Virus record (IMG/VR): IMGVR_UViG_3300044638_001495
Span: 1-21,005 of that record
DNA from: a virus
Strand: one strand, 5' to 3'
DNA: 21,005 bases
Below the pieces are notes generated by a model. It was not told where the DNA came from, did not search any database, and worked only from the letters and a program-made list of their open reading frames with translations. Positions within the stretch are counted from its first letter, which is position 1, and each line of letters begins with the position of its first letter. The position numbers and the translations under genes were made by a program. Positions 1,591 through 21,005 of this stretch are shown piece after piece.

Positions 1591-1810
1591 GTTCATCCTC
1601 ATCATCATCATTTAATGTATCGGTGGCAAGACTATCGGCGATGTTATAAAATATCATCGCCGCTTGATCAGTACCTAAACTTTTCACATAACCCTTGGTA
1701 ACCACTGCTGCCAGGGCCGCAAGTACTTCAAGCTCGTGACCTTGATTATGGGCTGACTCCACTAGTTTGTGGAGCCAGATCATAAGAGTGGTTGTAGAAA
1801 CCTCGTTCAC
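1571..1810 (-). CDS. Small protein of unknown function between clamp and clamp loader
   Basis: I do not recognise this protein. It has about 79 residues, mostly predicted helical (MIWLHKLVESAHNQG, LEVLAALAAVVTKGYVKSL, AAMIFYNIADSLA), and ends in an acidic, disordered tail (DDDEDEHGDD). It fills the whole space between gp45 and gp44 and overlaps both, which argues for a real gene. T4 has no gene at this place. The start is uncertain: a GTG at 1810 overlaps the gp45 stop as GTGA (1807-1810), a GTG at 1828 gives 85 residues, and the first ATG at 1783 gives 70. None has a good Shine-Dalgarno, so coupling to gp45 is the best guess. By position it could be a replisome accessory factor, but nothing in the sequence shows this. 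Confidence 0.65.
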   Translation of the reverse strand: MNEVSTTTLMIWLHKLVESAHNQGHELEVLAALAAVVTKGYVKSLGTDQAAMIFYNIADSLATDTLNDDDEDEHGDDRQ

Positions 1811-2460
1811 TTCTTCGGAGTCGAACACGCGACCCAGTATTCAATGTCACCAGACTTGGACTTGAAGTGAGCCATACCATTAGTCACACTCACATCATAG
1901 TCGCGCGGCAGAAGCTTGAGGTTTTCAATTGCAAACACTGCCTTGTAGTCATTCGAAGCATCACCGACCTCATATTCAGTATTGTCGGAGATGTCCTCGA
2001 GGACATTGGTGCCAGAGAGATACGACTTACCGTTCTTGCCATAGAGAAGAACGTTCGGCAGCCCAAGCCCGGCAGTCAGCTTTAGCACCCAATTGAGAGC
2101 TTCATTGCTGATGGTGAACGTGGCATCAACACTCGGAAGCTTCGGGTCCTTTACAGGCGGGTGCGTGACAGTTGCGATACCGCCGTGAAGGACCCGCGTG
2201 GCTGCACGCGAATTGCTTACGACAGTATGCTTATCCGTAAATTCAAGATTCGGACTGTCATAGGCCGTAAGCACCATGATAAACTTTGTCAGGTCATTGA
2301 TCGCACATTCGATCGGGAATGTCTCTTTGACGTTAGCCGAAGCCAAGATGGTGCTCTTGGAATGGATCGTTCGAAGATTATTACCCGGGCGAATGAGAAG
2401 CGATGGGTTGATGGCTGCAAAGTTCTTCAGGATTTCGATAGTTTCATTTGAAAGTTGCAT
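1807..2460 (-). CDS. 45: DNA polymerase sliding clamp (gp45-like)
   Basis: A protein of 217 residues (T4 gp45: 228), the trimeric ring that tethers the phage polymerase to DNA. In T4 it also activates late transcription together with gp55 and gp33. The N-terminus MQLSNETIEILKNFAAINPSLL aligns with T4 gp45 (MKLSKDTTALLKNFATINSG), followed by IECAINDLTKFIMVL and a C-terminal IEYWVACSTPKK strand. The ATG at 2460 is chosen: it matches the T4 start and has GGAG 6 nt upstream. A GTG at 2472 would add four residues, and its GTGGAG contains that Shine-Dalgarno. The gene has its own sigma70-like promoter (2489-2517) and begins the gp45-small ORF-gp44-gp62-regA operon. Confidence 0.93.
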   Translation of the reverse strand: MQLSNETIEILKNFAAINPSLLIRPGNNLRTIHSKSTILASANVKETFPIECAINDLTKFIMVLTAYDSPNLEFTDKHTVVSNSRAATRVLHGGIATVTHPPVKDPKLPSVDATFTISNEALNWVLKLTAGLGLPNVLLYGKNGKSYLSGTNVLEDISDNTEYEVGDASNDYKAVFAIENLKLLPRDYDVSVTNGMAHFKSKSGDIEYWVACSTPKK

Positions 2461-2488
2461 GATATACTCCACTGTTTAGAACATGACG

Positions 2489-3386: not shown

Positions 3387-3426
3387 GGTACCCCTTTCAT
3401 ACCAAACATATAGAAATATGTAGGGC

Positions 3427-3466
3427 GTAAAAATACAAATAGGGCCGAAGCCGGAGCTTCGACCCT
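3427..3466 (-). terminator. Intrinsic terminator after the HTH gene
   Basis: On the minus strand an 11-bp stem (3441-3451 paired with 3456-3466, one G-T wobble) closes a 4-nt TCCG loop, followed by a T-rich stretch (ATTTGTATTTTT, 3429-3440). It lies 19 nt past the HTH gene stop and separates the CobT/CobS/HTH unit from the glycosyltransferase. Confidence 0.9.
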
Positions 3467-3484
3467 ACGTAGCCACTAAAGTTA

Positions 3485-3739: not shown

Positions 3740-3784
3740 TGTATATAAACCTTTCATGTTGGTTGTGTTGTATAAAATGCCCCA

Positions 3785-4939: not shown

Positions 4940-4964
4940 CACGTTCTCCATTGTGTATGCGTGC

Positions 4965-4993
4965 ATTATATAAGGTAACTGGGTATCAGTCAA
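4965..4993 (-). promoter_or_regulatory. Sigma70-like promoter for the CobS-like ATPase
   Basis: -35 TTGACT (4988-4993), a 17-nt spacer and -10 TATAAT (4965-4970). The -35 box lies in the last codons of the upstream CobT-like gene and is part of the extended CCATTGAC motif also seen at three other promoters here. The predicted start near 4958 leaves a leader of about 19 nt that contains GGAG. Confidence 0.82.
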
Positions 4994-7112: not shown

Positions 7113-7118
7113 ACGGTC

Positions 7119-7147
7119 ATTATAGTGTATGCCTGACCGTATGTCAA
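7119..7147 (-). promoter_or_regulatory. Consensus sigma70 promoter, predicted leaderless start
   Basis: Perfect hexamers on the minus strand: TTGACA (7142-7147), a 17-nt spacer and TATAAT (7119-7124). Six nt (GACCGT) separate the -10 box from the ATG of the CobT-like gene at 7112, so the start site should coincide with the A of the ATG. The -35 is part of an extended CCATTGAC. Confidence 0.9.
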
Positions 7148-7171
7148 TGGTAAAACTTGGCTAATTAGGTC

Positions 7172-7858
7172 TCACTTGATGGCAATGAAACCAGTGAATG
7201 CGTGATTTTGCCAGAAAGAATCTACCTGCCTAAACCCGGCATCATCTACCATATCAAGCAGTTCTTGGCGCGTATTTGGCTTCATCATATGGCGAAGCGT
7301 GCGCTCCTTGTCCATAATGTCTTCCGTGCTAAAGGACTCGCGCTTAAAATCGTAATAGGTAAAGGTACGAATTTCGTGAATACGCGACGAAGATGCTACA
7401 GTCTTTTCTGCAAAGATAAATGCACCACCTTCATGCAAACCATCATAGATGCGCGCGATGATATCATGGCGATCACGCTGAGGCATGAATTGAAGCGTAA
7501 AGATAGATGTGACGAGAGAGCAGTTAAAATTGAAACTGAAGCTTCGCACATCACAAGTCTTATATGTAAGACGCTTGTTTAGTACTTCATCTCGCATATC
7601 TTCTTCAAAGCCAGCATAGAAATCTTCTTCGATTTCGACACCGATGTAGTTGGCGCGTGGGGCAAATGTGTTTTGCTTGATCATCGCCTTTAGCAGCTTA
7701 CCCGTCGAACACCCAATGTCAACCACGTTGGTATCATCTTCGACAAAGTACTGTGACATAGAAAGCACATCATTCCAAAGATCACCATAGTGGCGAATGG
7801 ACGCATTGATGTGATTGTCAAAGCCTTCGTTGCGGGTTGCGAATGTAAACTTTGTCAT
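7172..7858 (-). CDS. CmoA-like class I SAM-dependent methyltransferase
   Basis: A protein of 228 residues. Motif I is NVVDIGCSTGK (44-54), an acidic residue ends the second strand (YIGVEIEE, 71-78), then come CDVRS, SIFTLQFMPQRDRHDIIARI, GGAFIFAEK and a C-terminal YYDFKRE...DAGF...FTGFIAIK. These blocks follow E. coli CmoA, the enzyme that makes carboxy-SAM for wobble-uridine modification of tRNA. By an ungapped alignment to CmoA recalled from memory, the Arg that holds the carboxylate (Arg199) falls on Glu, so ordinary methyl transfer is as likely. No CmoB partner is in the window. The ATG at 7858 overlaps the cytosine methyltransferase stop as ATGA and has AAGGA upstream, so the two are translated together. 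The true substrate (tRNA, DNA base, sugar or small molecule) is unknown. Confidence 0.72.
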   Translation of the reverse strand: MTKFTFATRNEGFDNHINASIRHYGDLWNDVLSMSQYFVEDDTNVVDIGCSTGKLLKAMIKQNTFAPRANYIGVEIEEDFYAGFEEDMRDEVLNKRLTYKTCDVRSFSFNFNCSLVTSIFTLQFMPQRDRHDIIARIYDGLHEGGAFIFAEKTVASSSRIHEIRTFTYYDFKRESFSTEDIMDKERTLRHMMKPNTRQELLDMVDDAGFRQVDSFWQNHAFTGFIAIK

Positions 7859-9021
7859 GATGTAATTTCCTTCTTGTAAGGTACCAGAACATTCTGATAG
7901 ATGTTTGTTGCTAGAGCAGCCATCATCTTTGGCGCAACCATTCGCCCGATGCGCTCGGCTTGCTGATCAAAAGTACCACTCAGCTTGTAGTCGTCAGGCA
8001 GACCCATGACACGCTTTAGCTCGGGTACAGTTAGCTTGCGATTTCTTTCAAAGTGAAGCACACCAGAGACGCCGCGCTTCTGCCCAGCCTGCGTCACAGT
8101 CGGGCTTGGTAGATGTGGTGCGGGGCGAATCATATTGAACAGAGACGCCTTTGGGTTCACATCACGAAATTCTGGCATTGATGGCTTCGTATGCTTAGCT
8201 GGGTTAAGCGGCAGCATCTCGACCCACTTCTTCTGCCAGCAATTTTGCACATAATCCTCAAGCATCTTTTCTTGCTCAGGGTCATTAACAAGATTTTCAA
8301 ATGCCTCTGAGATTGAGATATGCTCAGGGCGCTGCTTGTTGACCTTGGGGAAAACTGTATCATGCGCGTTGAACATATGAATACCGACCTTGTCTGCAAC
8401 GTCATGTCGAATGCAAACAAAGAACGTGCGCTCGCGCGACTGAGGTGTGCCAAAGTCTGCTGCACTCAATACTTGATACGTGACAAAATAACCGGGCGAG
8501 ATTTGCTCAAAAGCATTTCTGAATTCGTTCAGCTTGCCGACAGCTTCGCCCATGGTGATGCCCTTTACGTTTTCGGCAACAATCACCTTGGGCTGAATCT
8601 GCCCGGCAATGCGAATGAACTCAAGAAACAGATCCTCGATGTTCTCGACCTTCTTACCATCGCTGTAAGTCTTTTCTTTGTTCCAGCCCTTCTCGCGCTT
8701 GCCGGCAACAGAGAACGCAGAACAAGGCGGCGAGCCATCTAGAATATCAAGCTCACCTGGCTTCAGCCCAGCAGCAGCCAGAAGGTCTGCGCCAGTGATA
8801 CCCTTGATATCACCAGGCACGATCTTGGTGTCGGGGAAATTCATCGAATACGTCTTGATAGCTTCTTCAACGAATTCATTGATGGCGATCACCTTACCAC
8901 CAGCGAGTCGATAGCCAGTGCTGGAACCACCACCGCCGGCAAAAGTCGAGACAACAGTAAATAGCTCGCGCGCCGAGCTATCTTTCACATCTTGAACTGT
9001 ATAAGGCTGATACTTCGGCAT
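7855..9021 (-). CDS. DNA (cytosine-5) methyltransferase
   Basis: A protein of 388 residues from the ATG at 9021. It has motif I STFAGGGGSSTG (25-36), the catalytic loop GSPPCSAFS with nucleophile Cys100, ENVKG (150-154), QSRER (194-198), a variable target-recognition region (about 215-320) and C-terminal motifs IX-X (RKLTVPELKRVMGLPDDY, then ERIGRMVAP). All catalytic motifs look intact. No restriction endonuclease is adjacent, so it is likely an orphan that protects phage DNA, or the first step of a cytosine modification. Upstream ATGs at 9054 and 9039 are rejected: the first overlaps the -10 box, while 9021 has AGGA 8 nt upstream. It is followed by a coupled CmoA-like enzyme. The recognition site cannot be told from sequence. 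Confidence 0.93.
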   Translation of the reverse strand: MPKYQPYTVQDVKDSSARELFTVVSTFAGGGGSSTGYRLAGGKVIAINEFVEEAIKTYSMNFPDTKIVPGDIKGITGADLLAAAGLKPGELDILDGSPPCSAFSVAGKREKGWNKEKTYSDGKKVENIEDLFLEFIRIAGQIQPKVIVAENVKGITMGEAVGKLNEFRNAFEQISPGYFVTYQVLSAADFGTPQSRERTFFVCIRHDVADKVGIHMFNAHDTVFPKVNKQRPEHISISEAFENLVNDPEQEKMLEDYVQNCWQKKWVEMLPLNPAKHTKPSMPEFRDVNPKASLFNMIRPAPHLPSPTVTQAGQKRGVSGVLHFERNRKLTVPELKRVMGLPDDYKLSGTFDQQAERIGRMVAPKMMAALATNIYQNVLVPYKKEITS

Positions 9022-9049
9022 ATTGTTATTCCTGTACATGTCATCGAAT

Positions 9050-9078
9050 ATCATATATTACTAATCCGATAATGTCAA
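9050..9078 (-). promoter_or_regulatory. Sigma70 promoter for the cytosine methyltransferase
   Basis: -35 TTGACA (9073-9078), a 17-nt spacer and -10 TATGAT (9050-9055), with the extended CCATTGAC motif. The predicted start near 9043 leaves about 22 nt of leader with AGGA before the ATG at 9021. This site rules out the longer ATG start at 9054. Confidence 0.88.
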
Positions 9079-9258
9079 TGGCTGTAATACTTCACTTTCC
9101 CATCCACGAGATGGGGAAATGTCTAATAGAATCAGACTGATATAGATACGGGCTAATCTTTGCGTCTTGAAAACCATCGAGTTACTACCCAACCAACCAA
9201 GGAAGATAATAGCGCGCTTATTATCAGTAGAACCATTATGCGACAGCTTGTCGATCAT
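9061..9258 (-). CDS. Doubtful small ORF (65 aa) between deformylase and methyltransferase
   Basis: An open frame from the ATG at 9258, overlapping the deformylase end by 23 nt and running to the promoter of the next gene. It fills the longest gap of the window. The only suggestive segment is KRAIIFLGWLGSN, which resembles the first strand and turn of some alpha/beta hydrolases, but at 65 residues it could be no more than a remnant. AGG lies only 3 nt before the ATG, too close for a good Shine-Dalgarno. It may be a decayed gene, a real small protein or chance. Confidence 0.22.
   Translation of the reverse strand: MIDKLSHNGSTDNKRAIIFLGWLGSNSMVFKTQRLARIYISLILLDISPSRGWESEVLQPLTLSD
9096..9119. 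other. Hairpin in the deformylase-methyltransferase gap
   Basis: An inverted repeat, 9096-9104 against 9110-9119, pairs three A-T, three G-C and three further pairs (GAT/ATC) around a 5-nt loop, with one bulged base. No T-run follows on either strand, so it is not a standard terminator. It lies about 18 nt upstream of the -35 box of the methyltransferase promoter and could stabilise the 3' end of the deformylase transcript. Confidence 0.45.
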
Positions 9259-9766
9259 TAGCCTTTCGAACTCTATCCATCTTTAGCTTTCTGCGCTTGG
9301 CTTGTTGTAGATGATAGAGATTTGCCCTGTCAGTAAAGAGAACACCATCAAGATGGTCGACTTCATGCTGAGCAACGCGGGCAGTCATGCCCTGAAAATT
9401 ATGCGTCTCGACATCACCATTTAGATTTGTGTATCTCATGCGAATGGTAGTTGGTCGCTTGATCTTTAGAAAGAGCCCAGGGAATGTAGAACACTGCTCC
9501 TCATAAACAGTATGATCATCACCAGTATTAACAATCTTAGGGTTGAATACTGGCATGATGCTATCAGGCTCGTCGGGGTTACCGAATACGAAGACGCGAG
9601 ACATGATACCCAGCTGAGGCGCAGACAACCCTAGAGTCTTAAGCTCACACATCTTATTTCGCAGAAGCTCATAAAGCGCCATAGGTGGGATTTCTGAATT
9701 TTCAAAATCATAATCTTCACTAGCAATTCTAAGCAGTGGGTTATTAGATTTTAGCAAGACCATCAT
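9236..9766 (-). CDS. def: Peptide deformylase
   Basis: A protein of 176 residues that removes the formyl group from the N-terminal Met of new proteins. Three motifs are visible: GLSAPQ (46-51), EQCSTFPG with metal ligand Cys92 (90-97), and QHEVDHLDG with ligands His134 and His138 and catalytic Glu135 (133-141). The second motif departs from the usual EGCLS: Gly is Gln and Leu-Ser is Ser-Thr. Phage deformylases are known from marine T4-like phages and may speed processing of phage or photosystem proteins. The gene starts inside the 3' end of the sugar epimerase gene (23-nt overlap) with AAGGA just upstream; two adjacent ATGs (9766 and 9763) are both possible. It is the last gene of the sugar cassette. 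Confidence 0.92.
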   Translation of the reverse strand: MMVLLKSNNPLLRIASEDYDFENSEIPPMALYELLRNKMCELKTLGLSAPQLGIMSRVFVFGNPDEPDSIMPVFNPKIVNTGDDHTVYEEQCSTFPGLFLKIKRPTTIRMRYTNLNGDVETHNFQGMTARVAQHEVDHLDGVLFTDRANLYHLQQAKRRKLKMDRVRKANDRQAVA

Positions 9767-10646
9767 TATATTCCTTCACAAGCTGCTCAATACCATCATC
9801 GAGACTTATCTTTTGTTTCCACTGTATATCATTTAGTAGTCTTGTGTCAAGCAGTTTTCTAGGCATACCGTCGGGCTTGGTAATATCAAACTTGTAATTA
9901 CCCTTCCACCCAACTACATTAGCAACTCTTGCAGCTAGTGCAAATATCTCAATGTCAACACCGCTACCAATATTAATTTCAGGCGCATCAATAGCAGTTG
10001 CGGCGACAATTGCATCAGCAGCATCAGCTGTGTGCAAAAATTCTCTGCGCGGCGTACCCGTACCCCAAATCTCAACCTCATCAAGTTGATTGCGCTTTGC
10101 ATCACAAAACTTCTTGACGAGAGATGCAAGCACATGACCACCTTCACCGAAAGTATCACCTGGGCCATAAAGATTGCACGGCATCATAGACTTATAATCA
10201 AAGCCCATTGCGCGTGCCATTCTGACAGCTTCTATAACATGCATCTTAGCCAATGCATACCCAAGATTTGTCGGCTCTAGTGAACCAGACCCAAGCATTT
10301 CTTCTCGCATCGGTTGCTGACATTCTCTTGGGTAAACACATGATGAAGAAATGTTATAGAGATGCTTTACACGATGTCTAGTGCATACATCAATTAGATT
10401 GATACCCATCTGAGTATTCTTAATCAGAAAGCTAAGAGGGTTCTCCATATTTTTCTTGATACCGCCAACAAGACCGGCACAATGAAAAACCCTATCTGGT
10501 TGTTCGTCGATGACAAATTCAATCTGATCAAGTTGTGTCATATCGCAGTAACCACCACCGATGGAAAGCACAGGACCATCTTGCTTTAGTCGCTCGGTAA
10601 GAGCGCGACCAAGCATACCAGTTCCACCAAATACGATAGTTTTCAT
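9744..10646 (-). CDS. GDP-4-keto-6-deoxyhexose epimerase/reductase (Fcl/ColC type)
   Basis: An SDR-family enzyme of 300 residues. It has the NADP-binding FGGTGMLG (6-13), catalytic SSS (100-102) with Cys103 next to it, Y130-x3-K134, and the GMER-like segments LEPTNLGYALAK, MMPCNLYGPGD, GGHV (candidate epimerase His) and GTGTPRREFLH. The family makes GDP-L-fucose from GDP-4-keto-6-deoxymannose, or, in the ColC branch, GDP-L-colitose from the 3-deoxy intermediate. Sequence alone does not split these. The coupled ColD-type dehydratase upstream (ATGA overlap, 10643-10646) favours the colitose branch. It would act in the cytoplasm with NADPH. Confidence 0.85.
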   Translation of the reverse strand: MKTIVFGGTGMLGRALTERLKQDGPVLSIGGGYCDMTQLDQIEFVIDEQPDRVFHCAGLVGGIKKNMENPLSFLIKNTQMGINLIDVCTRHRVKHLYNISSSCVYPRECQQPMREEMLGSGSLEPTNLGYALAKMHVIEAVRMARAMGFDYKSMMPCNLYGPGDTFGEGGHVLASLVKKFCDAKRNQLDEVEIWGTGTPRREFLHTADAADAIVAATAIDAPEINIGSGVDIEIFALAARVANVVGWKGNYKFDITKPDGMPRKLLDTRLLNDIQWKQKISLDDGIEQLVKEYNDGLAKI

Positions 10647-11812
10647 TCGCCTAATACCTCACCGATTACATGGCGTGCGCGTCTAATGTTGTCACCTAGA
10701 TCACGATGATCATTACCAAAGAAAAACCCGTTCTTGTCAAGATACTCTGCATTAGTTAGATCACCCGATATCTTGTGCGTAATCTTATTAATCACAGGCT
10801 GATTCAAAAAATTGCCCGTTACTATTGGGCGCGTCTCAATGTTCTCAGCCTTTAGCGCATCGATAATCTTCTTTCGCTTACCCTCATGCTTCTTCGGTAG
10901 TATGACGGCAAAACCAAACCAGCTAGAATGCATACCAGACTTTTCTGTTTGACGACCGAATTGAAGATCAGAAAATTCTTCTTGAAATGTCTCAGCATTG
11001 TCTCTGCGATATTCAATAAACTTATTCATCTTCTTAAGCTGCACAGAACCAATAGCACCACTCATCTCCAGAGGGCGCACACAATAACCTTCGGTTACAA
11101 ACTTAAAACTATCTTCAAATGGATCTCCAGACTTCTTGTAGAGAACATCAGTTCTGAGATCGCGCACCCACCCATGCGCCCTAATTGATCTCATGTAGTC
11201 GGCTAGCACGGCATTGTCGGTGACAATCATACCACCTTCCATGGTTTGCAGATGATGGCTAAAGAAGAATGAGAATGTACCACCCAGCCCATAGGTACCA
11301 GCATACTTACCGTTTAACGTTGCGCCATAGCTTTCGCAGTTATCTTCAATAAGAATCATCTTATTTGATGTGCAGATATCGCGCAGAATACTCAAGTCGG
11401 CAGGCATGCCTAGAAGATTAACAGCAAATATCGCGCGCGTGCGACTGGTTATGGCCTTGCGAACTTTGAATACGTCGATGTTGCAGTTAGAATCAACATC
11501 AACAAAGACAGGCACAAGACCCATTTGCGTCAGAGGGAAATACGTGGTGCTCCAGCTAACAGCGGGGACAATAACCTCGTCACCCGGTCTAAGATCAAAT
11601 GGACCCTGTATTAGTGCAGATACAAGAACAAGGTTTGCAGAGCTACCACTGTTTACCATCACGGCGTGGCTAGAGCCAACCTTCTTTGCAAACTCGTCCT
11701 CAAACTGTCGCACGCGCTCACCCATCGTGTAGCGCCCACTAGCCATAACCTTTAGAATGGCTAGCTTCTCACCCCAACCCCAGCTATCGCTTGCGAGAGA
11801 ATACTTCTTCAT
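10643..11812 (-). CDS. colD: ColD-type PLP-dependent GDP-4-keto-6-deoxymannose 3-dehydratase
   Basis: A protein of 389 residues in the DegT/DnrJ/EryC1/StrS fold. The position that holds the PLP lysine in aminotransferases is His186, in [11 protein letters not shown] (184-194); His at this place defines the 3-dehydratases ColD and RfbH. The PLP-ring Asp is D157 in [11 protein letters not shown]. Further blocks match ColD as I recall it: [10 protein letters not shown] (82-91), [31 protein letters not shown] and [10 protein letters not shown]. coli ColD is 388 residues with His188. The enzyme removes the C3 hydroxyl of GDP-4-keto-6-deoxy-D-mannose using PLP and glutamate. It is coupled by ATGA overlaps to GDP-mannose dehydratase upstream (11809-11812) and to the epimerase/reductase downstream; GAGG lies 7 nt before the ATG. 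Confidence 0.85.
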
Positions 11813-12816
11813 TTCATGTCCTCCATAACCATCTCTTGGATAAGTTCTTCAAAAGTCACTTTTGGTACCCACCCAAGCTTATTTTTAGCCTTATACGGCA
11901 TGCCATGTAAAAAATCAACTTCATTTGGTCTACGATATCTATTGTCCGTTTGAACCAATATCTTACCGGTATTACTGTCGGCACCAAACTCACCACTGCG
12001 AGTCTTGTGCCATTCAATCTTGATGCCAACATTCTCAAATGCAGTTTCTACAAGATATCGAACAGTAACAGTTCGACCAGTTGCAATTACATAATCATCA
12101 GGCTTTTGCTGTTGAACCATAAGCCACATTGCTTCAACATAGTCTTTAGCATGACCCCAATCACGTTTGGCTTCAAGATTACCTAATACTAGAGGTACAT
12201 CGCAACCCTTAACAATTCTAGCTACAGCCTTTGTGACCTTGCGAGTCACGAATGTCTCACCCCGACGAGGACTTTCGTGATTGAAAAGAATACCGCAAGA
12301 GATATGCATACCATATGATTTACGATAATTGTCGCATAGCCAATGTGCATATAGCTTTGCAGTGCCATATGGGCTACACGGTTGAAATGGTGAATTTTCA
12401 TCTTGCGGTCCAGGTGTAAACCCATACATCTCTGATGTACTAGCCTGATAGATGTGGCAGTTATCTGCGATACCAGCAGATCGCACAGCCTCAAGAATCT
12501 TAAGCATACCAAGCCCGTCAGCCATCATGGTATATTCAGGCATTTCAAAGCTGACCATGACATGCGACTGCGCAGCAAGATTGTAAATCTCATGCGGTCG
12601 TACCTTTGCGATAATTGCTGATATCGCAGAGCCATCTGTTACATCACCGTAATGCAACTTGATGTTGTTAAAGATATGATCAATTCTACCAGTGTTGAAA
12701 GACGATGACCGCCGAATAATACCGTGAACCTCATAACCCTTGCTGAGTAGTAACTCAGCCAGGTATGAACCATCTTGTCCAGTAATACCAGTTATCAATG
12801 CACGCTTCATGCGCAT
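11809..12816 (-). CDS. gmd: GDP-mannose 4,6-dehydratase
   Basis: A protein of 335 residues. The N-terminal [10 protein letters not shown] (10-19) binds NADP; then come [11 protein letters not shown] (35-45), STSEMYG (126-132, with catalytic Thr127 and Glu129), the active-site Y150-x3-K154 in [12 protein letters not shown], and the GMD signature [15 protein letters not shown] (about 179-193). It converts GDP-D-mannose to GDP-4-keto-6-deoxy-D-mannose, the entry step to GDP-fucose, GDP-perosamine and GDP-colitose. The ATG at 12816 is chosen because GGAG lies 9 nt upstream; the ATG at 12810 overlaps the gp46 stop as ATGA and is the alternative. It is the first gene of the inserted sugar cassette and depends on transcription through gp46, since no promoter is seen before it. 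Confidence 0.94.
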
Positions 12817-14534
12817 TCAGAAACACTCCCAGCAATACGTGAGAAGTTCTTGTGCTTCTCAAAACGAATGATATCTTTAAACTTGTCCTGCAATACTTCA
12901 CCCTTATGTGAAATGATGAAAGTATTTGTATTATCAATTGACTGTAGAAGCTTCATGAAATCATCGCAGCCGTTATTGTCAAGTGATGCATCAAACACCT
13001 CATCAAGCAGAAGCAGATTGGTGCTTGCACTATTCTTCATCTTTGCAATAGCGCGCCAGGTAAAGAGTAGCGCAAGATCGATACGCATCTTCTCGCCTTC
13101 ACTAAACGAGTCGTAGGTAAAATCGTCACGGTGACGTGACAGCAATCTTTCTTCAAAAGATTCATCAAGCTCAAACTTGACAAAGAAGTCCATCATAGCC
13201 AGATACTTGTTGACAAGCGAATTGATGATCGGAATATATTGCTTGATGATTCTAGACTTGATACCAGAGTCACGAAGAATGACAGTTGCAACCTCAAGCA
13301 ATTCTTTCTGCGTCATATGCTCAATTCGCCGATCATTTGTAGCCTTGAGCTTGAGGCGCAGGTCTTCAATACCATCAGTATCAACTACAGCCCTAGGCTT
13401 CATGAGGTCAGCAATCTGTCGCTGGAGGGTGCGTATCTCTCGATTGTCAGCAGCAATATCAGTATTGACGTGAGCAATTTGCTTGTTTAGACTTTGTATC
13501 TTTTCATTCTGGGTTTTCGCAGTGAGTAGAGTTTCACCCAAAGATGTGATATTACCAGACAGCTTATCAAGTGCCTGCTCTACTTCACCCGCAGTAGTTT
13601 TCTTGCTATTGATCTTCTCGACCTTTAGAGCTTCATCAATAGTCTGGCTACAAGTTGGGCAGCTATCATTAGTCTCGTAAAATTCAATCATCTTCAAAGC
13701 TTTGCTGCGCTTCTGTGAAAGAGACTTTTCAAGCTCGCGCAGCTTCGTCATCTTCTCGCGCAGCATAACCTCGTCGATCAAATCAACTTTTTCAAGATCA
13801 ATTTTAGCTTGCAGTGCATCGATCATCGCATTCAGAGTTTCAATTCTCTGATGCAGAGTTTCAATATTGGTTTGAATTCTTTCGATGGTATCAATCTTGA
13901 CTTGTTCGTCATACTCATCGCGCGACTTCTGAATTCGAATCATTTCTTCAATCGAAGAAATCTCACGATCTATCAATGCCAATTCACTCTTGTTTGTGCT
14001 AACCCGATCCTTAAGCAGCGATGACATGGTTGAAAACACGCGAATGTCAAGCAGGTCTTCGATGACTTCGCGCCTGACAGATGTCGGCAGCTGCATGAAT
14101 GGCACAAATGAAGATGAACCCAGAATCACAATCTGGGTGAATGACTTCATATTCATTCGAAGAATCGTGCGCTCAAGCATTTCTTGCTGATCGCGGCTAG
14201 CAGCCAGCTGATCCATCATCTTATCTGATTTGTATATCTCAAAGACAGCAGGCTTAATACCACGACGCACAAGATAGCTTTCGCCAGAAACCTCAAATTC
14301 AATCTCGACAACAGTATCACGACCGTTGATCGAATTGATTAGCTGATCCTTCTTAACCTTGCGAAAGGGCTTGCCATACAGACCAAAGCATAGTGCATCA
14401 AGTATGGTCGACTTACCAGCACCATTTGAACCGATGACAAGCGTGTTTTGATTTTTGTCAAGCGCGACCTCGGTAAAGACATTCCCTGTGGAGAGGAAAT
14501 TCTTCCATCGCACCTTTCTAAAATGTATTGCCAT
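12807..14534 (-). CDS. 46: Recombination nuclease subunit, Rad50/SbcC-like ATPase (gp46)
   Basis: A protein of 575 residues. Walker A GSNGAGKS (35-42) follows the N-terminal strand. Two long coiled-coil arms (about 175-280 and 305-420) flank the zinc hook CPTC (292-295). The ABC signature FSEGEK (477-482) and Walker [12 protein letters not shown] (506-516) close the C-terminal half of the nucleotide-binding domain. With gp47 it forms the Mre11-Rad50-type complex that trims DNA ends for recombination-dependent replication and helps degrade host DNA. It starts 1 nt after the gp47 stop with no clear Shine-Dalgarno, so it relies on coupling. Confidence 0.95.
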
Positions 14535-14535
14535 G

Positions 14536-15597
14536 CTAGTCAGCAGACTCCATCATAATTGCTTCACTGTAAAGACCACGCATTAGCTTTTCTAGATTAC
14601 CCTTATCAACACCAATCTCAAGGGCTTGAATATACTTAGACAGAATCGTTAGAGTATCTTCGGCTTCACTGAGCAAATCATCGTCGCTAATTGAATCCAT
14701 ATTTCTATGATCTTCAACAATCGACACATCTACTGGACCAGTAGAGTATAGCTTGCCCATGAATAGATCGAACAGATAAGGGTTAGTCTTACCCTGAACG
14801 ATCACCTTGACATACTTACCAGCTACGTCAGGTGCGCTATCAAGAACCTTCTCTGTGCTTTTACCCTCGTCGTCATACCAAACTTTCTTGAAGATAGTAT
14901 AGGGGTTCTGCACAAATTCAAATTCGCGCGTCTCTGTATCAAAGATATGAAACCCTCTCGGGTCATTACAATCTGACCAAATCATTTCATATGGCGCACC
15001 GAGATAATAGATGTTACCCTTTCTCGACATATGATGATAGTGACCCGAGCATACGATATCAAACTTATCAAACGTCGCAGGTTCAAAGCCTTCATGAGAA
15101 GGCATACCACGATACATGTCAAAGCCCTTAACTTCAAGATGACCCATGGCAATCTGCGCCTTAGTTGACTTCATAAGGTCTACGCTAGCCTGATAATTCT
15201 CTTGATTAATCCAAGGCAGAAACAGCATCTCGCACCCGTCGATAGTCACTTCGGCAGGGTCGGTGTACAGCTTGATGCCATCAATGCTAGCGAATAGCTC
15301 GCGCATAGCATTAATATCGTTAGTATTCTTATAGGGAATATCGTGATTACCAACCAGCACATGCACATCATAGCCTTGCAGCCGATTGATAAAACTCTCG
15401 CGCATCTTTCGTAGAGTGACGTAAGAAATAAATTTACGTCTATCTACAATATCCCCAAGATGAAGAATTGTTGTAATACCTCTCGCCTTTAGCGCCGGAA
15501 AGAAAATCTCATCATAAAATCTGATGAAATAATCAATGAAGTCCGAACTGTCGTTTCGGACGCCAAAGTGAGTATCTGTGATAATAGCAATTTTCAT
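14536..15597 (-). CDS. 47: Recombination nuclease subunit, Mre11/SbcD-like (gp47)
   Basis: A protein of 353 residues (T4 gp47: 339). The calcineurin-like phosphoesterase motifs are intact: DTHFG (8-12), GDIVDRR (48-54), GNHD (83-86), MGHLEV (151-156) and SGHYHH (184-189). It is the nuclease partner of gp46. The ATG at 15597 is the natural family start (MKIAIITDTHFG), yet no Shine-Dalgarno precedes it. A -10 box ends 6 nt upstream, so the mRNA from the local promoter is probably leaderless. Readthrough from gp55 is also possible. Confidence 0.95.
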   Translation of the reverse strand: MKIAIITDTHFGVRNDSSDFIDYFIRFYDEIFFPALKARGITTILHLGDIVDRRKFISYVTLRKMRESFINRLQGYDVHVLVGNHDIPYKNTNDINAMRELFASIDGIKLYTDPAEVTIDGCEMLFLPWINQENYQASVDLMKSTKAQIAMGHLEVKGFDMYRGMPSHEGFEPATFDKFDIVCSGHYHHMSRKGNIYYLGAPYEMIWSDCNDPRGFHIFDTETREFEFVQNPYTIFKKVWYDDEGKSTEKVLDSAPDVAGKYVKVIVQGKTNPYLFDLFMGKLYSTGPVDVSIVEDHRNMDSISDDDLLSEAEDTLTILSKYIQALEIGVDKGNLEKLMRGLYSEAIMMESAD

Positions 15598-15603
15598 ACA
15601 GTC

Positions 15604-15633
15604 ATCATATACTATTTGTTACGTCATTGTCAA
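15604..15633 (-). promoter_or_regulatory. Sigma70-like promoter for gp47, predicted leaderless start
   Basis: -35 TTGACA (15628-15633), an 18-nt spacer and -10 TATGAT (15604-15609), embedded in the last codons of gp55. Six nt (GACTGT) separate the -10 box from the gp47 ATG, nearly the same sequence (GACCGT) as before the CobT-like gene. It shares the extended CCATTGAC motif. Confidence 0.83.
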
Positions 15634-16168
15634 TGGCTTTCTTTCGCTTCTCTTTCTTGCTCTTTCGATTTTCATCGAAGCTGTTCATAAATCTTTCCAT
15701 TTGCTCTTGCGACCATTCGCCATAGCTAACATCATCGTTGAAGCGAGACCCTGACCTCTTGTCGGACTCTTGCACTTCGCTCGTTTCATCTAGAAGATTT
15801 GCTCTCTCGATGGCTACGTACTTTGTGTACAGATACTTCTTTTCTTTTTGAATTCTACGAAGAAAGGCGTAGTAAATGATCTGAGTGAAATACGCGAATG
15901 GGTTCTGCGACTTCGATGGGTCGAAGTTATCGATGTATTGCAGACAGTTTTCAATGCCATCTGAAATCATTTCATCTCTGAAAGTGTAATTAGAGAAGTT
16001 TGGCCTGTATGCAAGATGAGTCGCAATCTTCATAATGCACTCGCCAACGTATGTGGGTACTCGCGGCTTAGGTCTGCCGGCGAGGCTAGCATCTGCTACA
16101 GCTTTGCGATACTCAACCATGGCTGCGTATAAATCTGCGTTTTTTACGTAATGTTTTTTGCTTGACAT
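15605..16168 (-). CDS. 55: Late-transcription sigma factor (gp55-like)
   Basis: A protein of 187 residues (T4 gp55: 185), the phage sigma factor that directs host RNA polymerase to late promoters. The region YTFRDEMISDGIENCLQYIDNFDPSKSQNPFAYFTQIIYYAFLRRIQKEKK matches the sigma-2-like core of T4 gp55 ([38 protein letters not shown]). The C-terminus is Lys/Glu-rich and differs from T4, where it binds the clamp. AGGAG lies 8 nt before the ATG. The gene follows uvsW by 45 nt, and I see no good promoter of its own on this strand, so it is probably co-transcribed with uvsY and uvsW. The gp47 promoter lies in its last codons. Its likely target here is the CTAAATAGTA motif before the virion genes. 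Confidence 0.92.
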   Translation of the reverse strand: MSSKKHYVKNADLYAAMVEYRKAVADASLAGRPKPRVPTYVGECIMKIATHLAYRPNFSNYTFRDEMISDGIENCLQYIDNFDPSKSQNPFAYFTQIIYYAFLRRIQKEKKYLYTKYVAIERANLLDETSEVQESDKRSGSRFNDDVSYGEWSQEQMERFMNSFDENRKSKKEKRKKAIDNDVTNSI

Positions 16169-16189
16169 TTTGCGATCTCCTGGTATAAT
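16162..16189 (+). promoter_or_regulatory. Consensus promoter on the opposite strand, antisense to uvsW
   Basis: On the plus strand TTGACA (16162-16167), a 16-nt spacer and TATAAT (16184-16189) preceded by TGG, an extended -10. Both hexamers are perfect. It starts at the first codons of gp55 and would begin an RNA near 16196 that runs into the 3' end of uvsW as antisense. No plus-strand gene follows. Confidence 0.55.
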
Positions 16190-16213
16190 AGGTCTTGCCG
16201 TTTACGGAGTATA

Positions 16214-17659
16214 TTACTTTATAGTCTCTTTGAGCTTAATCGTATGCATCTCATACTTGAACCCTTCTTGATTATACATCTTGATGCGTTCGATCAGATG
16301 ATTCAGAGTGTAATTTCTTGAAGTCTTAGTTGACATGTCATCAGCGATGTCAAACAGAGTGCAAGAATCTTTTGTGTCACTCTTTCTAAGCCCACGACCG
16401 ATTGACTGAAGGGTTCTAACCCTACTCTTAGTAGGCGACGCAAAGATCACGTTATGAAGATTACGAATATTGATACCTGTGCTGAATGTGCCATACGATG
16501 CAACAATGATATTGTCATCGCCAGTTTCAGCTAGTGTACGAATATTATCACGATCTTCAGCTTCTGTGCCACCATGCACGAAAGAGACTTTCTTGTCAGT
16601 AGCTTTGGCGTTGATCATTTCATATAATACTTCGCCGTGTTTTTCTACGAGAGAATAGAGTATAAGTGTGTTACCCTTTAGTGATAAGGCTAGATTTCTA
16701 ATGAAACGATTGCGCGCATCGCTTGACACTATGCGATCAATTTCATCTTGATATGTTGCTTCACGCGACAGTGCTTGCTCATGCTTAAGCACAAGCACCT
16801 TGATCGCAAGGTCTGCGACATGGCCTGCGTCCATAAGATCCTTTGTCTTTACCAGACGCTCAACTTTACCAAACAGCCCTTCAAGCACAAGCTCATTGAC
16901 TTCTGCACCATCAAGCGTGCCAGTCATACCAAATCGATATTTGGTTGAAGGCATCTTCGTCATGATGTTGACAAGGCTCTTAGCTTTGAAGAGATGTGCT
17001 TCGTCGCCGATGACAGTATCAAACTGAGAGAAGAACTCTTCACCCATTTCATAAACAGACTGCCATGTTGATACAGTCACGCCATCAGAAGCGATCTTTT
17101 CTTGCCCACCTCTAATGCCGTGAATAGGACCAATGTACCCGTAATCTTGAAAGTCTTTCACCATCTGAATAACCAGAGATACTGTCGGGACCACAATCAG
17201 AGTGCGCCCACCAAACCACTGACTGATAAGATACGCAACCATTGACTTACCACTAGCCGTGGGTGAGATAAGAACAGCGCGCTTCATGCGAATGGCTAGA
17301 GCTAATGCTCTAATCTGATAGTCTCTAGGTTCTACAGGCAGTTTTAAATCTTTGATAAAGTCTTGTATCTCTATCAGTGAAACACCGTCTTCTGAGATAA
17401 GATCATCATCTAATGTGACATCATAACCTTCGTTCTCAAGAAACGATCTAACATTGTGTGCAAGCCCAGCATACATGCTGTAGTTTCTTGAATTGAATAG
17501 ACGAACTTTACCGTCCCATACTTTACTCTTAAATGCTGGCATAAATTTTGCACCAGGCACTTCAAATGTAAATTTTTCGGATATCTCGCGCGCGACAGAT
17601 TGGGAGCACTCAAAACGCATGAATGATTCATCAACCTTGCGTATGTGCACCTTTTCCAT
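16214..17659 (-). CDS. uvsW: UvsW-like recombination and R-loop helicase
   Basis: An SF2 helicase of 481 residues (T4 UvsW: about 500). It has an N-terminal DNA-binding part (FMPAFKSKVWDGKVRLFN, 39-56), the Q-motif-like PRDYQIRAL (111-119), Walker A SPTASGKS (132-139), DEAH box (219-222), TGTL (246-249) and the C-terminal QSIGRGLRK motif VI. UvsW unwinds branched DNA and R-loops and shifts T4 from origin- to recombination-dependent replication. The ATG overlaps the uvsY stop by one base (TAATG), with AGGA 8 nt upstream. Confidence 0.94.
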   Translation of the reverse strand: MEKVHIRKVDESFMRFECSQSVAREISEKFTFEVPGAKFMPAFKSKVWDGKVRLFNSRNYSMYAGLAHNVRSFLENEGYDVTLDDDLISEDGVSLIEIQDFIKDLKLPVEPRDYQIRALALAIRMKRAVLISPTASGKSMVAYLISQWFGGRTLIVVPTVSLVIQMVKDFQDYGYIGPIHGIRGGQEKIASDGVTVSTWQSVYEMGEEFFSQFDTVIGDEAHLFKAKSLVNIMTKMPSTKYRFGMTGTLDGAEVNELVLEGLFGKVERLVKTKDLMDAGHVADLAIKVLVLKHEQALSREATYQDEIDRIVSSDARNRFIRNLALSLKGNTLILYSLVEKHGEVLYEMINAKATDKKVSFVHGGTEAEDRDNIRTLAETGDDNIIVASYGTFSTGINIRNLHNVIFASPTKSRVRTLQSIGRGLRKSDTKDSCTLFDIADDMSTKTSRNYTLNHLIERIKMYNQEGFKYEMHTIKLKETIK

Positions 17660-18099
17660 TATTTCATTCCTACTGTTAGTCGCCGCCAGTCAATTACATT
17701 CTTGATCTGAAAGCCTCGATTGTTAATAGACTTCATAATTTCTTCTAGCACCAATACGCATTCTTGATGCATACTAAGTGTGCTTTCAAGCTTGATCATT
17801 GTTGGGTCATTTGTGATGCGATCTTCAACATCACCGCGCAAAACGCGCTCCATAAATTGCTCACGACCCAGCTTTGCTAGATCATCTTCTGTAGCTTTGC
17901 CAGTATAATATGCTGTCAGCAATCTAGTAAGTGTCTTTTTACTAGCAGTAAATTCACGAACCTTACCTCTCTCTTTTGAGAGTAAAGCAAGATACTTGCC
18001 ATGCAGCATAGGTACCTTGATGCTCTCAAGGTCCAAATTAAGATCATCCAGCTTGGTGTCACTGGACCACATTTCTAGTATGTCTTGCGTTGTCATCAT
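17659..18099 (-). CDS. uvsY: UvsY-like recombination mediator
   Basis: A protein of 146 residues (T4 UvsY: 137) that loads the UvsX recombinase onto single-stranded DNA covered by gp32. The match is mainly in plan: an N-terminal helix, a Lys/Arg-rich middle (KYLALLSKERGKVREFTASKKTLTRLLTAYYTGKA, like T4 KKVALKARLDYYSGRG), and a C-terminal MKSINNRGFQIKNVIDWRR that resembles T4 AIKSRGFAIKHIQDMR. Its place directly upstream of uvsW supports the call. Two adjacent ATGs (18099 and 18096) are possible; neither has a Shine-Dalgarno. A promoter -10 box ends 6 nt before 18099, which again suggests a leaderless mRNA. Confidence 0.87.
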   Translation of the reverse strand: MMTTQDILEMWSSDTKLDDLNLDLESIKVPMLHGKYLALLSKERGKVREFTASKKTLTRLLTAYYTGKATEDDLAKLGREQFMERVLRGDVEDRITNDPTMIKLESTLSMHQECVLVLEEIMKSINNRGFQIKNVIDWRRLTVGMK

Positions 18100-18105
18100 C
18101 TAGCC

Positions 18106-18134
18106 AACATAACAGGTTTTATCGCAAATGTAAA
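18106..18134 (-). promoter_or_regulatory. Sigma70-like promoter for uvsY-uvsW-gp55
   Basis: -35 TTTACA (18129-18134), a 17-nt spacer and a weaker -10 TATGTT (18106-18111). Six nt then lead to the uvsY ATG, the same geometry as at gp47 and the CobT-like gene. It lies in the short gap after the tail-tube-like gene. Confidence 0.6.
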
Positions 18135-18137
18135 GAA

Positions 18138-18680
18138 CTAAATGCGTTCTAATGTATATTTTCTATAAGAAAATGTAGCAGTTGCTTCTAGGTAATCAAC
18201 ATCATTTGCCATAGAATTGAATCTAAGTGCAGATAGTGATGTTGGCAATACATCAGAGAAGAATGCATTCAGTCCAGGATTTTTGTGACTTGTCAAAATC
18301 GTTAGTGTCGCATCTGATACTAGTGTCTGCATAGTACCAACATTAGCTTGTGTTGATATCGGTGATGATCTTGATAGGTCTCTAGTCTGTTGTAGAGACG
18401 TTGGGTGACCAAGACCTTCTAACCAGTTGACCATCTCAATATAGTTTTTCATATCTTCATCAACACGAAATGTAATAGTGAGAGGGTCATATACAAGCTT
18501 ATCACCAGGGCGTATTAGAGTACCAACTGGTGTGGGTGTATTGATTGGCGTCATGCTAATTGCTGGGATGTCTACCGATTGACAAAAATAATTGACCATC
18601 GGTAGACGCCTCAGCGTAAACTTGAACCCTAGTGGCGATAGGTAATTCAAGTTAGTTGGTTGCTCAACCAGTGCGTTCAT
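18138..18680 (-). CDS. Tail-tube-like virion structural protein
   Basis: A protein of 180 residues, beta-rich. It opens with NYLSPLGFKFTLRRLPMVNYFCQSVDIPAIS and continues with TPTPVGTLIRPGDKLVYDPLTITFRVDEDMKNYIEMVNWLEGLGHP, closing with VDYLEATATFSYRKYTLERI. This order of strands with a central 'DPLTITFxVDEDMxNYxE' block is typical of tail-tube-fold proteins of T4-like phages, such as gp19-like tube, initiator or baseplate-hub paralogs; which of these it is I cannot say. It lies directly after gp23, past a terminator, with its own CTAAATAGTA late-promoter candidate and GGAGG before the ATG, so late expression is likely. Confidence 0.6.
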   Translation of the reverse strand: MNALVEQPTNLNYLSPLGFKFTLRRLPMVNYFCQSVDIPAISMTPINTPTPVGTLIRPGDKLVYDPLTITFRVDEDMKNYIEMVNWLEGLGHPTSLQQTRDLSRSSPISTQANVGTMQTLVSDATLTILTSHKNPGLNAFFSDVLPTSLSALRFNSMANDVDYLEATATFSYRKYTLERI

Positions 18681-18695
18681 CGTTGCCCTCCGTGC

Positions 18696-18705
18696 TACTA
18701 TTTAG
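18696..18705 (-). promoter_or_regulatory. Candidate late promoter for the tail-tube-like gene
   Basis: CTAAATAGTA, identical over 10 nt to the motif before gp23. It resembles the T4 late -10 element TATAAATA recognised by gp55 and has no -35 box. It lies between the gp23 terminator and the Shine-Dalgarno of the next gene. Confidence 0.6.
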
Positions 18706-18709
18706 GCAC

Positions 18710-18739
18710 AAAAAACCCCGTGAGATTTCTCCCACGGGG
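18710..18739 (-). terminator. Intrinsic terminator after gp23
   Basis: A 10-bp GC-rich stem (18716-18725 with 18730-18739, one G-T wobble) is capped by a GAAA tetraloop and followed by six T on the minus strand (18710-18715). It lies 28 nt past the gp23 stop and would end the abundant capsid transcript. Confidence 0.95.
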
Positions 18740-18767
18740 CTCTTGTTACTTAGGCTGTCGCCTGATA

Positions 18768-20156
18768 TTACATCAGGTTGGTTACAGACACGAAGCGGTA
18801 GTAGATGTTTGCCTTCGCGTCGCCGAACGAACCGATCGAGCCGTCAGCATTCGTAGTAGCAAACGGGTTAGCCACAAGACCATAACGAGTCTTGAAGCCG
18901 ATCTTCGGCTGGAAGGTGTCCTGACCGATGGCGCGAACCATCTGGAGCGGAACATACGGGCAGTAGAAGAGACCAGCGTCGAAGGCAGAAGAACCCTTGT
19001 AGCCGAGTGTCAGGTACTGTTTGCCAGAAGCAGATGAGAAGTACGGGTCGATATAGACGCGGATGCGACCGTTGATCACGCCGGCAAAGGTGTTGCCTGT
19101 GTCATCAACCTGCAGGTTCGCTGAGAGAGCAGGCGTATAGTCAAGCACGCCGGCCATTGACAGAGCAGAAGCAACGTCTGATGAGCAGATCAGAACGTTA
19201 CCCTTACCGCGACGGGTTGCCTTCGCGATCTGGTTAGCTTCACGCTCGATCTGGAACAGCAGACCCTTAAACTTCTCAACCATCCAGCGGCCGTTTGAGT
19301 CAACGTCGAGGTTGAACGTACCAGTTGTCGTCACGTTCTCCTGAGCACCAGCTGTCGCGGTGTAGTTGATTGTACGAACAACTTCGCGGTTGATTTCAGC
19401 AAGAATCTCGGCTGACAGAATGTTGGCTAGCTCAGACTCGGCGTCCAGACCATGGATTGCCTTCAGGTCCTGAGCCAGTTCCATGGTGTACTCAGCCTTC
19501 AGCGCACGTGACACTGCTGTCACTGCAACCTTCTCGACCGAGAATGCCATCTGCTGGAATGCATTAGTAGAACCGTCGCCCAGTGCTTCTGCACGTGACG
19601 TTGACATACCAGTTGAAACGGTGTAGCCAGAAGCGCCAGCCTTTACGCGAGCCGTCGGGTCATTGCCGTCCTGCACGCGACCAGAAGCCGTGTTAGCAAC
19701 AACAAAGCGAGAAGCTGTGTTACCACCAGCAGAGGCAGAGAACGTTGTATTGGCCTCGTTGAACAGAGCCTCTGTACCCGTCTGCGACTCATAACGTGAG
19801 CGCAGAGCGAAGATCAGGCCTGTAGGACCAGTCATCGGCTGAACGCCGCAGATGTCATAGGCGATCAGGTTTGGCATCGAGCGACGAACCAGTGAGATAA
19901 GCACCGGGTCGAAGATGTCGATGTTGCCGGCGCTGGCAACTGAAGAAGAAGCGCCCATGGCGTTAGCAGGAGCCGCTTCACCAAGTAGTGAAGGTGAGCG
20001 ATACCCGCCTGAACCAATTGCCTGCTGACGTGAGTCATGCTCCTGGTTCTCAAGCAGCTGCGCTAGAACTGCGCGACGATGAGAGTCCTTAATTGAGGGG
20101 AGGTCACCGTGATCGATGACGGCTCCCCACTTCTGCATTAGTGCTTCAGTATTCAT
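18768..20156 (-). CDS. 23: Major capsid protein precursor (gp23-like)
   Basis: A protein of 462 residues (T4 gp23: 521), the HK97-fold subunit of the capsid lattice. The block LVRRSMPNLIAYDICGVQPMTGPTGLIFALRSRY (about 88-121) is the gp23 hallmark. LEDLKAIHGLD-like and RTINYTATAGAQ segments and a C-terminal YGLVANPF follow, in line with the family. L58-G59-E60 before Ala61 fits the T4 prohead protease rule (Leu/Ile-x-Glu), so removal of the first 60 residues is expected, close to the 65 removed in T4. Two Shine-Dalgarno-like runs (AAGGAGG and AAAGG) precede the ATG. A late-promoter candidate lies upstream and a strong terminator downstream, which fits very high late expression. Confidence 0.96.
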   Translation of the reverse strand: MNTEALMQKWGAVIDHGDLPSIKDSHRRAVLAQLLENQEHDSRQQAIGSGGYRSPSLLGEAAPANAMGASSSVASAGNIDIFDPVLISLVRRSMPNLIAYDICGVQPMTGPTGLIFALRSRYESQTGTEALFNEANTTFSASAGGNTASRFVVANTASGRVQDGNDPTARVKAGASGYTVSTGMSTSRAEALGDGSTNAFQQMAFSVEKVAVTAVSRALKAEYTMELAQDLKAIHGLDAESELANILSAEILAEINREVVRTINYTATAGAQENVTTTGTFNLDVDSNGRWMVEKFKGLLFQIEREANQIAKATRRGKGNVLICSSDVASALSMAGVLDYTPALSANLQVDDTGNTFAGVINGRIRVYIDPYFSSASGKQYLTLGYKGSSAFDAGLFYCPYVPLQMVRAIGQDTFQPKIGFKTRYGLVANPFATTNADGSIGSFGDAKANIYYRFVSVTNLM

Positions 20157-20189
20157 AGTAGTTACCTTTCCCTCCTTAGGAATAATTAT

Positions 20190-20208
20190 TACTATTTAGT
20201 TATTTATG
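20190..20208 (-). promoter_or_regulatory. Late promoter region for gp23
   Basis: Two overlapping candidates. CTAAATAGTA (20190-20199) is shared with the tail-tube-like gene. CATAAATA (20201-20208) is one base off the T4 late consensus TATAAATA and overlaps the gp22 stop. The shared motif is the better guess for this phage. A start near 20185 would give a leader of about 29 nt with both Shine-Dalgarno runs. Confidence 0.65.
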
Positions 20209-21005
20209 CCTTTTTGACGGTACGTGAGATTGCCGCAACATACTGAGCCATTGGACCAGTTGCCTTGTCATCTGTATTGTCAATCGGGTCGCTGTCAAGC
20301 ACACCCTCATTGAGAACTGACTTTACAGCAGCCTTACGGCCTGACGGGAAGTAACCTTCCTTAAGGTCTGAGAGCTTACCAGCAAAAGTCTCAACGTCAT
20401 CAAAATCAACTGACTCGGCAAGCTTACGAAGCTTGTCAGCTTGCACTTCAGTTAGGCCATCAGTGGCCTCGGAGATTAAAGCACCACGAATAAGCTGTTC
20501 ATTCTCAGCGCGAAGCTCGACTGAGGTTTCAATTTCGTTGTTTAGAGCAGCGGTCAGCTCCTCAACCTTAGCAGCTAGATCCTCAACCACATCTTCCTTG
20601 CCCTCAGGCACATCGATGTAATGCTCGGCAAACAGATTGCGCAGACCCGTCATGAATGAATCAACGATCTCTGAGCGCAGGCCAGTCTCAACGGCCAGAC
20701 GATTCTCGTCCATCCACTGCTCAACAACGTGGTCGAGGTAAGAATCAAGCTCCTCAACAATACCAGCTACCTGAGTCTCAACTGCCTCAGCAATCTCGGC
20801 CTCATGAATAGCAGCCATCTCTTCCAGCTTCTCGTTGATCTTCGTCACGAGGGCTGTCTCAAAAATGTCAGACACCTTTGTCTTGAACTCTTCAGAAACG
20901 TCTGCGCCCTCAAAGATTGCGCGAACGTCATCGGCTACATTTAGGTCTTCTGATGTAACGCGCGGCGGCTGAGCAATCTTTGAGTTACCCTGCATTGGGT
21001 ACTCA
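20204..21005 (-). CDS. 22: Prohead core scaffolding protein (gp22-like), open to window edge
   Basis: A highly charged, helical protein rich in Glu and Ala. It follows the plan of phage gp22: DDVRAIFEGADVSEEFKTKVSDIFETALVTKI, then LDSYLDHVVEQWMDENRLAVETGLRSEIVDSFMTGLRNLFAEHYIDVP, a coiled-coil (EDLAAKVEELTAALNNEIE), LRKLAESVDFDDVETFAGKLSDLKEGYFP, and the C-terminal YVAAISRTVKK. It forms the inner core on which gp23 assembles and is degraded by the prohead protease. An ATG at 20995 would give 263 residues (T4 gp22: 269), but the frame stays open through the last bases and only a weak GAG precedes this ATG. Relatives with long N-terminal extensions exist, so the gene may continue beyond the window. 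Confidence 0.88.
   Translation of the reverse strand, partial: EYPMQGNSKIAQPPRVTSEDLNVADDVRAIFEGADVSEEFKTKVSDIFETALVTKINEKLEEMAAIHEAEIAEAVETQVAGIVEELDSYLDHVVEQWMDENRLAVETGLRSEIVDSFMTGLRNLFAEHYIDVPEGKEDVVEDLAAKVEELTAALNNEIETSVELRAENEQLIRGALISEATDGLTEVQADKLRKLAESVDFDDVETFAGKLSDLKEGYFPSGRKAAVKSVLNEGVLDSDPIDNTDDKATGPMAQYVAAISRTVKKA

Follow-up and report, generated by a model that had tools for sequence, protein, structure and literature searches.

Organization of the locus

The window considered here is a whole virus record (G000) of 21,005 bases, which represents a fragment of a phage genome. The genes listed in Table 1, including those for the major capsid protein gp23, the late sigma factor gp55, and the sliding clamp gp45, are all encoded on the minus strand. 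Orthologues of the window's tail-tube-family gene are named "tail completion" or gp3 in cyanophage records, and the related record G008 carries a second phrog_45 gene 3' of the sheath gene, so that the window-type gene is not the sole member of this family. Three frames at 9744-12816, between gp46 and the early genes, resemble sugar-nucleotide genes by the look of their sequences (GDP-mannose dehydratase, aminotransferase, and epimerase types).

Table 1. Positions of genes, candidate boxes, and other features in the window (gp22 box: in a related contig)
Feature	Position	Strand	Basis or remark
gp45, sliding clamp	1807..2472	-	phrog_223 9.8e-56, PF09116
sigma70-like sites near early-type genes (ends of second box)	2489, 4965, 7119, 9050, 15604	-	11-12 matches of 12
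gp55, late sigma factor	15605..16168	-	phrog_234 1.8e-59
tail-tube-family gene, 180 residues	18138..18680	-	phrog_45 1.8e-35
10-mer CTAAATAGTA, two copies	18705-18696 and 20199-20190	-	window sequence search
C-type late promoter box of tail-tube-family gene, CTAAATAG	18698..18705	-	candidate, motif and conservation
terminator hairpin and T-run after gp23	18710..18742	-	fold -31.6 kcal/mol, z -4.95
gp23, major capsid protein	18768..20156	-	phrog_138 9.4e-163, PF07068 8.6e-145
C-type late promoter box of gp23, CTAAATAG	20192..20199 (core 20193-20199)	-	candidate, motif and conservation
second, A-type box CATAAATA	20201..20208	-	directly 5' of gp23 C-type box
gp22, head scaffold	20204..21005	-	phrog_237, matched from profile position 114; N-terminus cut by window end
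gp22 box TATAAATA	L003:1188-1195		outside the window; L003 is a contig near-identical to it

As the first-pass annotation had reported, the same 10-mer precedes gp23 and the tail-tube-family gene; it occurs exactly twice in the window, both times on the coding strand. That annotation took the whole 10-mer as the element. A promoter box of this kind is well supported, but ten bases are too many: the conserved part is [A/C]TAAATA, which at sites with C appears mostly as CTAAATAG. These are the window's only two copies of the core CTAAATA, and both precede virion genes; its reversed form is also found twice, on the other strand. From the end of the core, 36 nt separate the box from the gp23 start (20156) and 18 nt from the tail-tube-family start (18680). 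Upstream of gp23 the order is CATAAATA, one spacer base, and then CTAAATAG, which makes the C-type box the second of two; the first-pass annotation had overlooked CATAAATA, the truncation of gp22, and the gp22 box in L003. The box of the tail-tube-family gene begins 4 nt past the T-run of the gp23 terminator.

The repeat within the window

Taken within the window, the significance of the repeated 10-mer is modest. It could be imagined as chance, an AT-rich word that two upstream regions happen to have in common. With up to one mismatch allowed, CTAAATAGTA is matched twice, where shuffled sequence averages 0.94, and at least two matches occur in 29 of 100 shuffles. First-order Markov simulation of the gp23 and tail-tube-family upstream regions only yielded a common 10-mer in 43 of 5000 runs; when all 22 upstream regions of the window were simulated, some common 10-mer is to be expected, since it arose in 1207 of 2000. 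Such statistics are too weak to decide the matter, and the argument for a late promoter therefore needed evidence from outside the window. Raw frequency is of no help here: NCTAAATAG is matched 29 times in 19 records and its reversed control 51 times, and CTAAATA stands at 43 versus 46 in Aeromonas phage Aeh1 and at 31 versus 82 in T4. Without an excess in number, only placement before genes is informative.

The early-type genes were said to have sigma70-like boxes in place of the 10-mer. On the minus strand, five sites with 11 or 12 matches of 12 do lie near such genes, and a simple consensus scan listed no sigma70-like -35/-10 pair before gp23 or the tail-tube-family gene. The sites as a class are nevertheless not in excess, with 33 in positions 1500-21005 versus a shuffle mean of 31.6. 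One 12-of-12 site, TTGACA-16 nt-TATAAT at 16162-16189 on the plus strand, lies at the start of gp55 and opposes the direction of that gene.

Placement of the box in related genomes

The most extensive comparison is with G020 (contig L213), a sister genome of 155,201 bases whose tail-tube-family protein is 85% identical to that of the window, and which is apparently complete because its ends are identical over 123 bases. G020 represents an undescribed T4-like group; of the named gp23 proteins among the matches listed, that of Stenotrophomonas phage DLP6 comes closest to the window's, at 64.9%. A site was counted as placed when it was intergenic and lay 8-70 nt before a gene on the same strand, with gene starts taken from the author's own script. 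The genome-wide upstream count proposed by the first-pass annotation as a check shows a markedly uneven placement. In G020, 11 of 19 ATAAATA and 6 of 9 CTAAATA sites are so placed, as against none of 30 for GTAAATA and none of 30 for TTAAATA. Control words are nearly absent from such positions (ATAAATC, the reversed word, 0/23; ATAAATG 1/29; ATAAATT 0/57). Against a base rate of 1.55% for all positions on both strands, the binomial p is 8.6e-16 for the A form and 1.1e-9 for the C form, and under a looser rule that allows overlap with coding sequence, 8 of the 9 CTAAATA sites qualify. The 70-kb record G008 gives the same picture, with A at 7/10, C at 4/4, G at 0/12, and T at 1/12.

A head, tail, or connector annotation is found downstream of 9 of the 17 counted G020 sites; the other 8 precede genes without virion annotation, which counts against a promoter reading, as does the overlap of three of the nine CTAAATA sites with coding sequence. 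One CTAAATA inside coding sequence, 70 nt before the thymidylate synthase gene, is probably due to chance. Of the six C-type sites, three precede the portal gene, gp23 (assigned by 93.5% identity to the window protein), and the tail-tube-family gene. The other three lie before an unmatched ORF of 89 residues, the gene for a 1057-residue protein that contains a cytidyltransferase domain, and a 93-residue ORF whose family is unknown and which adjoins an ORF weakly matching a holin. At the eleven A-type sites, the genes that follow encode the scaffold gp22, the sheath, the neck adaptor, three baseplate proteins, and Hsp20; the remainder are a 67-residue ORF situated before the prohead genes and three unknown genes. 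The first-pass statement that the element differs from T4 TATAAATA is thus half true, since in this lineage the genes for gp22, sheath, baseplate, and neck are preceded by TATAAATA or ATAAATA. At any upstream site in G020, a G directly follows the box in 6 of 8 C-type cases versus 1 of 12 A-type cases (Fisher p 0.0044); outside the clade, this preference was not clear in the wider survey described below.

By the same rule, T4 has A 29, C 0, G 2, and T 5 (160,000 of 168,903 bases), whereas Aeh1 has 29 of 43 CTAAATA and 5 of 23 ATAAATA upstream and intergenic; the relative G013 has A 18 and C 1. By these counts the window's lineage stands between T4, which uses A, and Aeh1, which uses C. The wider survey counted upstream and intergenic sites in groups that partly overlap. 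In the order A/C/G/T, these numbered 9/12/0/1 in 8 clade loci, 25/5/0/1 in 20 loci with gp55 63-73% identical, and 84/12/2/7 in 50 loci with gp55 52-62% identical. In 79 loci found by gp23 (from the best 80 matches) the counts were 230/19/12/7, of 395/97/215/262 occurrences in all. Outside the window's clade the excess of C is small.

Conservation and exchange of A and C

Before the tail-tube-family gene, CCTAAATAG is present at the same place in all 24 loci with upstream sequence (of 25 viral contigs with a relative of this gene), although only 9 distinct 60-nt upstream sequences occur among the 24, so that these loci are not independent observations. CTAAATA likewise precedes gp23 in 17 of 18 clade loci, the exception being L222 of record G023, which has ATAAATAG. 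The clade records share ancestry, and none of the conservation counts therefore represents independent events. Even so, 24 of 24 loci conserved over different flanks, together with the way the box is placed in G020, G008, and Aeh1 while the controls stay clean, contradict a chance repeat and make it barely credible.

Two boxes lie before gp23, and it might be supposed that CATAAATA, one letter off the T4 box, is the true promoter and that CTAAATAG is an incidental neighbour, only A-type boxes being functional. Outside the clade, ATAAATA is indeed the usual gp23 box. Of 75 loci from the best 80 gp23 matches (five were omitted, their upstream side being unused), 45 have ATAAATA (39 as TATAAATA), 6 have GTAAATA, and none has TTAAATA; the single CTAAATA belongs to L003, the only contig of the window's clade among those 80 matches, and 25 of the 75 have none of these boxes in the 75 nt before the gene. 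Within the clade, four of ten records keep CATAAATA, four others lack it, G005 has CATAAATT, and G023 has its single ATAAATAG; the A-type box is thus lost or broken in five of the ten while CTAAATA stays. Moreover, the C form stands alone before the tail-tube-family gene and, in five records, before the portal gene, and CTAAATA counted by itself is enriched before genes. A promoter function confined to A-type boxes is accordingly quite improbable.

Comparison of orthologous promoters shows that A and C are alternatives at -12: for the most part each gene retains its letter, with an occasional swap. The gp23 box has C in the clade and A in G023 and G013; the neck gene box has A in G020, G022, G008, G010, and G013 and C in G023. 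The portal box has C in five clade records and in G010 and A in G013, and the tail-tube-family box has C in 11 of 11 clade records and A in G013. The boxes of gp22 (8 of 8 clade records) and sheath (5 of 5) are invariably A. As a point against the promoter reading, gp23 and the tail-tube-family gene both lack such a box in G010 and in DLP6.

Before the portal gene, the C-type box CTAAATAT occupies the loop of a hairpin that resembles a terminator and sits behind gp19, the tail tube gene linked to the sheath gene. This holds in 5 of 5 clade records (G020, where the region is L230:9941-10012, and G007, G008, G022, and G023). An RNA begun in that loop would lack the 5' arm of the hairpin and so would escape the terminator. 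Such a position suits a promoter more than it does a leader element, and it bears on the possibility that the box acts in the RNA, in a leader, in processing, or in translation, or that it is a -10 box for a host sigma factor and not a gp55 promoter. The box of the tail-tube-family gene does lie close to the ribosome-binding site, as an RNA element might. The same core, however, marks the late genes of T4 and Aeh1 by the same count, and the missing sigma70-like pair before either window gene speaks against a host sigma factor. Readings of this type therefore deserve little credence.

gp55 and the late transcription factors

The first-pass annotation saw the C-type box as in step with a diverged gp55. 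The window gp55 is only 32% identical to that of T4, yet the residues expected to matter have hardly changed. Seven residues of T4 gp55 have been described whose alanine changes impair function, and in the cryo-EM structure a gp55 pocket receives the flipped -12 base, which stacks on Y97 (PMC7892883). Six of the seven are identical in the window protein, the exception being F in place of H95. This F95 is shared with DLP6 and with every environmental relative aligned, including G013, which uses A; the G013 pocket equals that of the window except for K in place of R57, a position at which both R and K occur within the clade. With so similar a pocket in an A-using relative, nothing indicates that C at -12 was accompanied by a change in gp55, and the pocket residues were rejected as an explanation of that base. 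Aeh1 gp55 differs from the T4 pocket at L54, R57, and T99, whereas the window protein differs only at 95. Y97 is present in 25 of 25 gp55 proteins aligned, and a flipped C could stack on it as well.

The window encodes gp55 and gp45, and gp33 (PF16805) is found in the sisters G020 and G008. When G020, G008, G007, and G013 (three of these records being fragments) were searched for an additional sigma factor, phrog_234 and PF04542 each matched only at the gp55 gene. The C-terminus of clade gp55 is a basic tail with no stretch like LDFLYE, the hydrophobic end of T4 gp55 that forms its clamp-binding site; contact with the clamp may rest on gp33.

A probable T4-type late promoter with A or C at -12

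In T4, late promoters consist of an 8-bp box about one helical turn before the start, with no -35 box; they are recognized by gp55 and activated by the clamp gp45 with gp33 (PMC2988020, in the text available). Several of these features recur in the window's lineage. The core TAAATA, in the form [A/C]TAAATA, stands shortly before virion genes on the same strand, no -35 element was seen in the simple consensus scan, and gp55, gp45, and gp33 are encoded, gp33 being known from the sisters since the window is a fragment. It differs in having C at -12 in a share of its sites, where T4 has none. We consider it likely, with a probability of roughly 0.85, that both copies in the window are T4-type, gp55-dependent late promoters whose -12 base may be A or C. 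This is in line with the late promoter first proposed for the locus, which the comparative counts and conservation support, and CTAAATAG is very probably a late start signal for capsid and tail genes.

By analogy with T4, gp55 on the host RNA polymerase, aided by gp33 and the sliding clamp gp45, would open the DNA at [A/C]TAAATA, and late RNA would begin about 6 nt past the last base of the box. Under this rule, gp23 transcripts would start near 20187 and those of the tail-tube-family gene near 18693; the leaders would measure about 31 and 13 nt, respectively. In this lineage the -12 base is C at gp23, the tail-tube-family gene, and the portal gene, and A at some other late genes.

Aeh1 offers the closest parallel for the C form. 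CTAAATA was proposed as its late promoter in 2006, in a paper that noted a diverged gp55 in Aeh1 (PMC1524935), and is also given in PMC2988020; the element is thus of a kind already known. The accessible text of both papers also describes consensus variants at -13 and -12 of the T4-type box. Aeh1 and the window's lineage share a box of seven bases that has C at -12 and stands before late genes. Unlike in Aeh1, where C dominates, A and C are mixed, with A the more frequent (11 versus 6 in G020, 7 versus 4 in G008), and the gp55 pocket is not altered relative to A-using phages. Because C is mixed with A here and the pocket is like that of an A-using relative, -12 specificity now has close natural comparisons.

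In other phages the likeness is looser. The late promoter of cyanophage S-PM2, NATAAATA (PMC2984593, in the portion available), has the same core and a loose -13 base but A, not C, at -12. In Enterobacter phage EspM4VN, of the Ackermannviridae, CTAAATAcCcc is a regulatory motif at five places (PMC7283392); the seven-base word is the same, followed by cCcc instead of G, and the available part of that paper does not call it a late promoter. No late promoter letters were found in the accessible part of PMC3296691. Among the literature matches listed for CTAAATA or CTAAAT, PMC1524935 is the one paper on a T4-like late promoter, and no gene-by-gene mixture of A and C was found described in the matches listed, which leave out most subscription papers.

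That such a mixture occurs in an uncultured T4-like lineage has a practical side, in that searches for TATAAATA only will miss late genes of such phages. A further, rather unlikely refinement is that one gp55 reads A and C as a two-letter code, the letter setting strength or timing gene by gene. Here the letter would act with the G that follows the box at most G020 C-type sites, and the C form would mark the major capsid, portal, and tail-tube-family proteins. If so, the lineage would be a natural intermediate between the A promoter set of T4 and the C promoter set of Aeh1. In Aeh1 itself (L244), two CTAAATA boxes lie back to back on opposite strands at 122804-122817, forming a palindrome that is possibly a two-way late promoter.
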